From contig CAKKRP010000023.1 of the NCBI GenBank assembly GCA_919902765.1, positions 1 to 64,000 on the forward strand: 64,000 nt of DNA, in the 5' to 3' direction. Positions 44,422 through 47,849 of the stretch are shown here, piece by piece. Positions within the stretch are counted from its first letter, which is position 1, and each line of letters begins with the position of its first letter. The DNA comes from Gammaproteobacteria bacterium. GTDB lineage: Bacteria; Pseudomonadota; Gammaproteobacteria; S012-40. The notes beneath the pieces were generated by a model, which was given only the letters and a program-made list of their open reading frames with translations, was not told where the DNA came from and did no database searches. The position numbers were made by a program, and so were the translations under genes.

Positions 44422-44508
44422 TGGTGCCGGGAGGGAGAATCGAACTCCCACGATGTTACCATCACCAGATTTTGAGTCTGGCGCGTCTACCAATTCCGCC
44501 ATCCCGGC
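44422..44508 (-). tRNA. tRNA-Leu (CAA anticodon)
   Basis: On the minus strand an 87-base tRNA with acceptor GCCGGGA/TCCCGGC, a D-arm GGCGGAATTGGTAGACGC, anticodon stem CCAGA/TCTGG around the loop CTCAAAA (anticodon CAA), a long variable arm as expected for Leu, T-loop GTTCGATTC and an encoded CCA end. It reads UUG codons. Confidence 0.95.
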
Positions 44509-44630: not shown

Positions 44631-44645
44631 TTGTTATTGTAACAA
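44631..44645. promoter_or_regulatory. Inverted repeat upstream of the putative small RNA
   Basis: TTGTTA-TTG-TAACAA is a perfect 6+3+6 inverted repeat about 20 bases before TATTAT (44665-44670), a candidate -10. It could bind an activator or repressor of the small RNA at about 44680. It does not match the TGTAAG-N6-CTTACA consensus of GacA sites exactly. Confidence 0.4.
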
Positions 44646-44679
44646 GCCTGCCCGCAATGGCGCGTATTATGCTAATTTT

Positions 44680-44838
44680 TGTGTAGTCGACTTGTGGATC
44701 TGACAATCACAACAGGGAGACAGGGACGCCACACACGGAGGCCTTGGGATATGTTGGGGTTGTAGGGACGCAACGCGGGCAGGGGACGCCTGGGGAGTGT
44801 AATACTTAATGGCGGGGCTTGCCCCGCCTTTTCTTTTT
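44680..44838 (+). ncRNA. Putative CsrB/RsmZ-type small RNA that sequesters CsrA/RsmA
   Basis: There is no protein gene here, but eight GGA triplets lie within about 100 bases (44696, 44716, 44724, 44737, 44747, 44766, 44784, 44794). Several fall in hairpin loops: GTTG-TAGGGACG-CAAC (44759-44774) and CAGG-GGACG-CCTG (44780-44792). A strong intrinsic terminator follows directly (44811-44838). GGA in hairpin loops plus a terminator is the known plan of CsrB/RsmY/RsmZ RNAs that titrate CsrA. The 5' end is estimated; the sequence need not resemble known members. Confidence 0.65.
44811..44838 (+). terminator. Intrinsic terminator of the putative small RNA
   Basis: GGCGGGG (44811-44817), loop CTTG, CCCCGCC (44822-44828), then TTTTCTTTTT. 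A very stable stem with a long T-tract and no protein gene upstream on this strand. Confidence 0.93.
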
Positions 44839-45023
44839 GAACGATAGACAAGGTATTTGTAAAAAAGAATGAAATACGCGATGATTTCGTTAGGTGTTTT
44901 GGCGCTTCCGGCTTGCCGGACTGCCCGTCATTTAGGCGGTAAATCGTCTTAAGCCGACATCCGTATTATGCACAATTCCCGCAAGGCATTCGAGATAAAC
45001 TATGCCATTATTCTCCATCTGAG

Positions 45024-45029
45024 TATAAT
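45024..45029 (+). promoter_or_regulatory. Candidate -10 element upstream of pepN
   Basis: A perfect TATAAT about 170 bases before pepN. I see no convincing -35 at the right distance, so this remains a candidate. Confidence 0.35.
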
Positions 45030-45059: not shown

Positions 45060-45170
45060 ATGGCCAAGCATTTTGTAACAGACACGCAAACGCTGGCGAT
45101 AGGCGCACAGAAGGATTTACGCACTTTTCCGGTGCGTGTGGAAGGCGATAAGATATTTGTAGAGATCTAA
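45060..45170 (+). CDS. Small ORF of 36 codons before pepN, possible Rieske-like tail
   Basis: ATG 45060 to TAA encodes a 36-residue peptide ending in DLRTFPVRVEGDKIFVEI. The ending resembles the C-terminal strand of Rieske-type ferredoxins such as NirD (TYPVRVEGG...), but no Cys-His cluster motif exists upstream. It may be a remnant or a true small protein co-transcribed with pepN. AAAGAG lies ten bases upstream. Confidence 0.35.
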   Translation: MAKHFVTDTQTLAIGAQKDLRTFPVRVEGDKIFVEI

Positions 45171-45197: not shown

Positions 45198-47849
45198 ATG
45201 ACCGCCCATCCATCCGTGCAAACCCATTATTTGGCCGACTATCGCGCACCCGATTATAAGGTACACAGTGTAACACTCGATTTTGATCTGGGCGAAGCGC
45301 ATACGCTGGTCACATCAGAGTTGGAAATCAGCGCAAATTTTCCCGTGACGGACGCGCGTCCGTTGATGTTGTTCGGCGCTGAGCTCGAACTGATCTCGGT
45401 GGCATTGGACGGCCGGGTGTTGAGCGCTGCGGATTATGTGTGTAATGATGTCAGCCTCGTCTTCGCCAAGGCGCCGCGTCAGTTTCGTTTACGCATCGTC
45501 ACAAAAATTTATCCGCAACAAAATACCACGTTGAACGGTTTATATCGTTCCAGCGGGAATTTTTGCACCCAGTGCGAGCCGGAAGGGTTTAGGCGCATCA
45601 CCTATTATCTCGATAGGCCGGATGTGATGAGCGTGTTTACCGTCACCTTGCATGCCGATAAAAAACACTATCCGCATTTGCTGTGCAATGGCAATCCGGT
45701 GGCGGCGGGCGGCGGGGCCGATGGAAAACATTGGGTGCGTTGGCATGATCCCTACCCTAAACCCAGTTATTTATTCGCCTTGGTAGCGGGCGATCTCGCG
45801 TGTATCGAAGATGAATTTGTCACCATGTCGGGCCGGCGTGCGGCCTTGCGCGTGTATGTGCAGCACCACAATGCCGATCAATGCGCTCACGCGATGCGTT
45901 CGCTGAAAAATTCCATGCGTTGGGATGAAGAAGTTTACGGCCGTGAATACGATCTCGATATCTATATGATCGTCGCGGTGGACGATTTTAATATGGGCGC
46001 GATGGAGAACAAGGGCCTCAATATTTTTAATTCGAAGTATGTGCTGGCGAAACAAGAAACCGCCACCGATGCCGATTTTCAACACATCGAAGGCGTGATC
46101 GGGCACGAATACTTTCACAACTGGTCCGGCAATCGCGTGACCTGCCGCGACTGGTTTCAGTTGAGTTTAAAAGAAGGCTTCACCGTTTATCGCGATCAAG
46201 AATTCAGCGCCGACATGGGCTCGCGCGGTGTCAAACGCATCGCCGATGTGAATGTGTTGCGTACCCACCAATTCCGCGAGGATGCAGGTCCGATGGCGCA
46301 TCCGGTGCGCCCGGAATCTTATGTCGAGATCAATAATTTTTACACCATGACGGTGTATAACAAGGGTGCCGAAGTGGTGCGCATGCTGGCTTACATACTC
46401 GGCCCCGCCGGATTTCGCGGTGGCACGGATTTATATTTCAGCCGCCATGACGGTCAGGCGGTGACCACGGACGATTTCGTGCGCGCGTTAGAAGACGCCA
46501 ATCAGATGGATTTGTCGCAATTCAAATTTTGGTATAAACAAGCGGGCACTCCGGTGTTGAACGTGTCACGCCGCTATGACGCACAGGCGCGTACCTATGC
46601 GCTGACGATAGAACAATCGTGCGCGCCCTCGTCCGGTCAAGCATCAAAACAGCCTTTTCATATCCCCATTGCAATGGCCTTATTGGATCGCGAGGGTCGA
46701 GAACTGCCGTTGCGCCTGCGCGGCGAGGCGGAGTCCGCAGGTACGTCGCGCGTGTTGCAGTTGCGCGAAGCGGTGCAGACCTTTGTATTTGACGAGGTGG
46801 AGCACCCACCGCTGCCGTCGTTGTTACGCGGGTTTTCCGCGCCGGTAAAATTGAATATCGATTTTGACGATGCTGAGCGCATGTTTTTGTTGGCCCATGA
46901 TAGCGATGAGTTTAATCGCTGGGAATCCGGGCAACGACTGGCGCTGAAATTAATCTTGGATGTGATGGAAAATGTAAAATCGGGTACGCCATTGACGATG
47001 AATAACGCCTATGTGTCGGCGATGCGTCGCGTGTTGAGTGATCGCGACTTGGATCGCGCGATGATGGCGCAGATTTTGACGTTGCCTGCCGAGGGTTATA
47101 TCGCCGAATTTACCGATAGCATAGATCCCGGCGCCATCCATCACGCCTGTCGTTTTGTCCGTACCGCGCTGGCCCGCGAGCTCGCGGATTTATGCGCGGC
47201 GTGGTATGAAGAGTTGACAGATGCCGGCCCCTATAAAATAGACGCCGACGCGGTGGGCCGTCGCGCGCTACGCAATGTGTGTCTGGGTTATATGATGGAA
47301 TTAGACGATCCGGCAATACGCACGCGCTGCGTGGCGCAGTATCGTGACGCCAATAATATGACAGACATGCTGAACGCCTTGTATTTTTTATGCAATACTG
47401 CGGGCGCGGAACGCGATCAAGTGTTGGCCGATTTCTATCAGCGTTGGCAAGGCGAGGCCTTGGTGGTGGACAAATGGTTGAGCCTGCAAGCGGGTTCGCG
47501 CCTGGAGGACACCGTGCAGCGCGTGCATACGCTGACCTCGCATCCCGCGTTTAACATCAAAAATCCCAATAAAGTACGCGCATTGGTAGGCGCGTTTAGC
47601 GGCAATACCGTGCGTTTTCACGACCAAAGCGGCGCGGGCTATGCGCTGGTGGCGGATTATGTGCTGCAATTAAATACGCTGAACCCGCAAATCGCCGCGC
47701 GCCTGGTGTCCGCATTCACCTTGTGGAGAAAATACGAACCTACGCGTAGCCGATTAATGGAGGCGCAATTGAAACGCATCGCCGCAGTCGAAGCGTTATC
47801 GAAAGATGTCTACGAAATTGTCAATAAAAGTTTAACGGCGGAATATTAA
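45198..47849 (+). CDS. pepN: Aminopeptidase N
   Basis: 883 residues, M1 zinc peptidase. The exopeptidase motif GAMEN lies near residue 266 and the zinc motif HEYFHNW near residue 301, with the third ligand Glu in LKEGFTVYRDQEF. A beta domain and the large C-terminal helical domain typical of E. coli PepN (870 residues) follow. It removes N-terminal residues from peptides in the cytoplasm. Confidence 0.96.
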   Translation: MTAHPSVQTHYLADYRAPDYKVHSVTLDFDLGEAHTLVTSELEISANFPVTDARPLMLFGAELELISVALDGRVLSAADYVCNDVSLVFAKAPRQFRLRIVTKIYPQQNTTLNGLYRSSGNFCTQCEPEGFRRITYYLDRPDVMSVFTVTLHADKKHYPHLLCNGNPVAAGGGADGKHWVRWHDPYPKPSYLFALVAGDLACIEDEFVTMSGRRAALRVYVQHHNADQCAHAMRSLKNSMRWDEEVYGREYDLDIYMIVAVDDFNMGAMENKGLNIFNSKYVLAKQETATDADFQHIEGVIGHEYFHNWSGNRVTCRDWFQLSLKEGFTVYRDQEFSADMGSRGVKRIADVNVLRTHQFREDAGPMAHPVRPESYVEINNFYTMTVYNKGAEVVRMLAYILGPAGFRGGTDLYFSRHDGQAVTTDDFVRALEDANQMDLSQFKFWYKQAGTPVLNVSRRYDAQARTYALTIEQSCAPSSGQASKQPFHIPIAMALLDREGRELPLRLRGEAESAGTSRVLQLREAVQTFVFDEVEHPPLPSLLRGFSAPVKLNIDFDDAERMFLLAHDSDEFNRWESGQRLALKLILDVMENVKSGTPLTMNNAYVSAMRRVLSDRDLDRAMMAQILTLPAEGYIAEFTDSIDPGAIHHACRFVRTALARELADLCAAWYEELTDAGPYKIDADAVGRRALRNVCLGYMMELDDPAIRTRCVAQYRDANNMTDMLNALYFLCNTAGAERDQVLADFYQRWQGEALVVDKWLSLQAGSRLEDTVQRVHTLTSHPAFNIKNPNKVRALVGAFSGNTVRFHDQSGAGYALVADYVLQLNTLNPQIAARLVSAFTLWRKYEPTRSRLMEAQLKRIAAVEALSKDVYEIVNKSLTAEY

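Follow-up and report, generated by a model that had tools for sequence, protein, structure and literature searches.

A probable CsrB/RsmZ-type small RNA encoded beside tRNA-Leu in a gammaproteobacterium

Introduction

The closest described relatives in kind of the RNA reported here are CsrB and CsrC of E. coli (RF00018 and RF00084), RsmZ/PrrB of Pseudomonas (RF00166) and Pf1 of Pseudoalteromonas. In SELEX experiments, CsrA preferred GGA displayed by short hairpins as part of their loops, most of which had six bases, and the same work highlighted the CsrA residues L4 and R44 (PMC7652899). Upstream of csrB and csrC, at a distance of about 180 bases, UvrY binds an 18-nt repeat of the type TGTAAGN6CTTACA (PMC4682653). 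Feature-based prediction of Csr-type RNAs is already established (PMC5568370).

The locus discussed below lies in the window, i.e., the whole 64-kb stretch of DNA that was analyzed, and most probably encodes a non-coding CsrA-sponge RNA of the CsrB/RsmZ type with a length of about 160 nt, as judged from its sequence features. It resembles RsmZ/PrrB in size, in multiple GGA with GGA-loop hairpins, and in a 3′ terminator, but the RF00166 model does not match it, it is linked to tRNA-Leu, and it has no upstream GacA box. Repeated GGA, hairpin-loop sites and a terminator are shared with CsrB and CsrC, however, CsrB has 22 GGA in 369 nt and CsrC 14 in 246 nt, compared with eight in the window RNA. 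Pf1 is likewise a GGA-dense Csr RNA that is confined, by primary sequence, to close relatives (PMC9927453), but it contains about 21 GGA, is preceded by a GacA box and has been tested in vivo, whereas the window RNA is shorter and a candidate.

Results

GGA cluster, transcript ends and coding potential

The GGA triplets of the locus start at positions 44696, 44716, 44724, 44737, 44747, 44766, 44784 and 44794, i.e., eight within 101 bases (44696–44796), which agrees with the first-pass annotation (eight in about 100 bases) and constitutes the densest cluster of the window. When both strands of the 64 kb were scanned, 110-base stretches with eight GGA occurred at this locus alone, and four ANGGA in 110 bases were likewise reached nowhere else. 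The RNA thus has the dense, multiple GGA of CsrB/RsmZ-type sRNAs, although the same counting that gives 21 A(N)GGA sites for E. coli CsrB gives only four here. In its 5′ half, the conserved CANGGANG site has the form CAGGGACG, and reads CAGGGAAG, CACGGAAG and CATGGAAG in the related RNAs described below (alignment A2).

Because the excess is modest given the G-rich composition of the locus itself, the GGA count taken by itself is suggestive, not decisive. With shuffles of this 111-base, G-rich stretch as the background, P is about 0.02–0.03 for GGA and about 0.01–0.015 for ANGGA, and for GGA in the 163-base transcript P is about 0.07–0.08. These values, together with a core that is 40% G, are what an Hfq- or ProQ-type base-pairing sRNA could also produce, the G-rich segments of which would pair with C- or pyrimidine-rich targets while the GGA triplets would follow from G-richness; this reading is taken up again with the hairpins.

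The other claims of the first-pass annotation about the locus, i.e., a strong terminator at the RNA end, no protein gene and no existing annotation, hold as well (Table 1). The terminator is intrinsic, with seven G-C pairs and a TTTTCTTTTT tail. Within the RNA there is no plus-strand ORF of at least 40 aa, and a 59-aa ORF on the minus strand over the RNA is merely a mechanical frame and not credible as a gene; the RNA is accordingly non-coding with an intrinsic terminator. A scan with the whole Rfam library returned nothing at the locus, the neighboring tRNA being the only feature above threshold, with chance-level matches down to E 10. A putative extended -10 element precedes the RNA, and similar TGCTA motifs precede two of its relatives, the G012 and G004 RNAs. 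Further upstream, the inverted repeat TTGTTATTGTAACAA has no match to the GacA/UvrY box and might be the mark of another regulator.

Table 1 Features of the locus and of the same-place RNAs in related genomes
Feature	Position	Strand	Basis
tRNA-Leu(CAA), divergent left neighbor marking the syntenic position	44422–44508	-	tRNA match
Inverted repeat TTGTTATTGTAACAA upstream of putative promoter	44631–44645	+	no match to GacA/UvrY box
Putative extended -10 of RNA promoter, TGCTAAT	44670–44676	+	sequence comparison; inferred
Probable Csr/Rsm-type small RNA	44677–44838	+	5′ end inferred from putative -10; 3′ end is the terminator T-tract; GGA cluster; three relatives have homologous RNAs in the equivalent position
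Conserved CANGGANG site in 5′ half, CAGGGACG	44721–44728	+	alignment A2
H1 hairpin, GUUGU-AGGGAC-GCAAC, ANGGAN hexaloop	44759–44774	+	covarying stem; not favored in single-sequence fold
H2 hairpin, CGGGC-AGGGGAC-GCCUG, GGA in loop	44776–44792	+	covarying stem
Last GGA, single-stranded linker between H2 and terminator	44794–44796	+	alignment A8
Intrinsic terminator	44811–44838	+	seven G-C pairs, TTTTCTTTTT tail
36-aa ORF (MAKHFVTDTQTLAIGAQKDLRTFPVRVEGDKIFVEI) just before putative pepN ORF	45060–45170	+	no Pfam match
Same-place RNA in G012	L169:790–953	-	
Same-place RNA in G004	L168:1379–1547	-	
Same-place RNA in G005	L164:2701–2888	+	

RNAs at the same place in related genomes

BLASTN of the RNA against 37 relatives found no homologue, and the tRNA-Leu(CAA) loci of relatives were therefore fetched and the strand diverging from the tRNA was read. 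A GGA-rich RNA with a terminator, divergent from tRNA-Leu(CAA), was found in this way in three more genomes of the same family (G012, G004 and G005), each with 7–9 GGA. Counting the window genome, the tRNA-Leu(CAA) locus was located in nine genomes of the family, five of which lack the RNA at that place, and inspection by eye of a set of tRNA-Leu loci from the same class revealed no comparable RNA. The other genome of the genus, an assembly that is only 78% complete and in 640 contigs, gave no match.

To the right of the RNA, an 883-aa ORF starting at 45198 retrieves homologues widely and is taken as a putative pepN; it is preceded by the 36-aa ORF, the end of which we take to resemble a Rieske/NirD-type protein, perhaps as a fragment. 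Since RNA and pepN share a strand and the intrinsic terminator lies about 360 bases before the pepN start, the RNA could be conceived as a 5′ leader or attenuator of the short ORF and pepN, with a conditional terminator. We consider this quite improbable, since the RNA accompanies tRNA-Leu rather than pepN in relatives, the G012 and G004 RNAs are convergent with a PD-(D/E)XK nuclease gene, and the upstream region of pepN in the congener is unrelated. A promoter-like site before the putative pepN is found at 45002–45029. pepN was also tried as an anchor of synteny and rejected, the regions upstream of it being unrelated in the congener and in other relatives; the informative neighbor is tRNA-Leu.

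The nuclease gene, which is RecB-like, lies beside the RNA in G012, G004 and G133, and this neighbor in common with the G012 and G004 RNAs favors descent over convergence for the G133 RNA. On the far side of tRNA-Leu(CAA), the window has an ORF with a PGI domain, and at the G004 and G012 loci (L168 and L169) a gene for a glycogen or alpha-glucan phosphorylase comes after the tRNA. The Csr system classically targets glycogen metabolism, and the linkage of the RNA to glycogen-related genes may or may not be due to chance.

Hairpins with GGA loops

The 3′ halves of the four RNAs were aligned with MAFFT, and RNAalifold, with no structure supplied, predicted two hairpins, H1 and H2. The H1 stem is rewritten from one RNA to the next while the A(N)GGA of the loop is kept: the window sequence (Table 1) corresponds to GUCGC-AGGAG-GCGAC in G012, GUUAU-ACGGAC-AUAAU in G004 and GUUAC-AUGGAA-GUGAU in G005. 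Pairing in H1 and H2 is 100% in all four RNAs, with two-sided changes at five of the ten pairs. The covariation score of the whole structure is 0.549 compared with 0.351 for shuffled alignments (none of 500 shuffles as high), and falls to 0.13–0.24 when the structure is slid out of register. In a ten-sequence set, H1 is 86% and H2 94% paired, and all H1 loops read A(N)GGA. The four RNAs thereby share a 3′ module consisting, in order, of H1 with its A(N)GGA loop, H2 and the terminator, and at the linker position after H2 a GGA or GGGA recurs in most relatives (alignment A8).

The claim that at least two GGA lie in clear hairpin loops is borne out in part. Folding of the single window sequence yields H2 with a probability of 0.78–0.98, but H1 with about 0.02 or less, and it is covariation that backs both and places GGA in hairpin loops, of the A(N)GGA(N) type in H1. 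Within the window RNA, other pairings compete with H1, which may consequently form only during transcription or upon CsrA binding. Conservation of the GGA loops in relatives, the check named beforehand in the first-pass annotation, gave a positive outcome, the loops being kept in four genomes of the same family with compensatory changes in H1 and H2. Both hairpins agree with the site preferred by CsrA in SELEX (PMC7652899).

In a base-pairing sRNA, the pairing seed should persist as a linear stretch; here, the stems vary and the A(N)GGA loops stay, as expected of a site that a protein recognizes. The base-pairing reading is therefore improbable, if marginally less so than the leader.

Covariance models

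To avoid circularity, the window sequence was left out of model R2, which was built from the G012, G004 and G005 RNAs only. Searched with R2, the 3.3-Mb genome of the window has its top match at 44757–44838 with E 2.2e-5 and the runner-up at E 0.34, the E-values of R2 and of the other two models (R1, four sequences; R3, ten sequences) being rough. This match, obtained with the window sequence left out, and the compensatory changes in H1 and H2 argue against a chance G-rich intergenic segment or a degraded, functionless relic, although BLAST finds no match in relatives at the level of primary sequence and several family members lack the RNA; of the alternatives weighed, we regard this one as the least probable.

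Outside the family, R1 has matches at E ≤0.01 in nine genomes; in seven of these genomes the matched loci are rich in GGA and keep hairpins and terminator in the same order, and two matches (L197 and L198) are doubtful. R3 has matches at E ≤0.001 in 67 of the 369 genomes of the class; the strongest, roughly twenty, are convincing and the tail is not, and weak matches (e.g., L225 to L228, L230 and L232) resemble coding ends with terminators and were not counted as evidence. Features that the model does not use speak for the R3 matches. The 80 bases upstream of them mostly contain at least three GGA, compared with 10% of random positions, and seven strong model matches have an exact TGTARGN6CTNANA box upstream (no mismatches), compared with 0.4% of random positions. 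When R3 was applied to the surroundings of pepN in 80 named records (1.0 Mb in all), nothing came below E 0.019. A second RNA in the window genome was also considered, but the next R3 match (contig C20, L204, E 0.015) has one GGA upstream and is unconvincing.

Several individual matches have features of their own. On the reverse strand of L193, upstream of 1576, two GGA-rich units that resemble each other and both contain TTGCCAGGAAGGCAATC stand in tandem before one terminator and have an exact GacA-type box upstream, as if an sRNA gene had been duplicated. Two R3 matches on one strand of contig C42 in G066 (65055–65128 and 65385–65471) are 330 bases apart, and are possibly tandem Csr sRNAs by their sequence. 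Identical module matches at two contig ends in G214 (C45 and C94) probably reflect either a repeat or a duplicated sRNA gene at which the assembly broke; the R3 matches L210 and L211 also sit at contig ends. In L191 and L193, which belong to two different families, the RNA is located downstream of dsbC, with a 4Fe-4S ferredoxin gene also close by in the case of L193; rsmZ of Pseudomonas adjoins fdxA.

The Rfam models behave differently. CsrB, CsrC and RsmY (RF00018, RF00084 and RF00195) have no match in the window, where their gathering scores are not reached, and PrrB_RsmZ (RF00166; gathering score 44 bits) does not match the window RNA. As the first-pass annotation had remarked, diverged members can escape the known covariance models, and this locus, to which Rfam is blind, is an example. 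The G012 RNA aligns with the whole PrrB_RsmZ model at 31 bits (E 2.1e-5), and L217, a distant module match, scores 36.6 bits (E 1.5e-6) with the CsrB model, both below the gathering score. R1, for its part, matches neither CsrB nor CsrC of E. coli. A search for a canonical RsmZ (RF00166) elsewhere in the window genome produced weak matches only, the best of which (L170) is at the end of a coding region.

CsrA and its regulators in the genome

The genome encodes one canonical CsrA, in which L4 and R44 are present, and one GacA/UvrY (308 bits; cut-off 280). Its best BarA-like kinase scores 526 bits against a cut-off of 890, so that the presence of a GacS/BarA orthologue is likely rather than certain. 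No GacA, LetA or UvrY boxes precede the window copy, i.e., the RNA lacks a box of the TGTAAGN6CTTACA type though GacA/UvrY is encoded; the G012 RNA has a LetA-type box with one mismatch. Such a box is usual upstream of Csr sRNAs, but it is not universal and hence not strictly defining.

Discussion

The conserved GGA loops, the recovery of the locus by a model built without it, and the presence of csrA and GacA/UvrY genes in the genome support the CsrB/RsmZ-type reading that the first-pass annotation had proposed. We infer that the RNA is expressed and bound by CsrA, and that GacS/GacA-type signaling turns it on. Transcription would proceed rightwards from a promoter of its own and stop at the terminator, and the product would offer about five to eight GGA sites, two adjacent GGA-loop hairpins included, to CsrA dimers. 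On accumulation, the RNA would take several CsrA dimers away from their target mRNAs.

The kind of RNA is well known; what is new is the locus and, should the wider analysis prove correct, a subfamily missing from Rfam whose descent can be traced. We give about even credence to the proposal that the window RNA belongs to a coherent Csr/Rsm sRNA subfamily, present in many families of the class, invisible to Rfam and defined by a conserved 3′ module (H1, H2, GGA linker and terminator). If so, Csr sRNAs that are usually held to be unrelated by sequence would have a traceable common descent.

In many bacteria, CsrA sponges govern the change from growth to storage or stress programs and back. Their sequences diverge quickly, however, and the window RNA escaped the Rfam models, as did almost all of its relatives described above. 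Starting from one locus, synteny and covariation yielded a model with which unannotated candidates can be recognized in dozens of genomes across the class. With these candidates, the Csr circuit could be filled in for lineages that are uncultured, and the descent of such RNAs could be studied.
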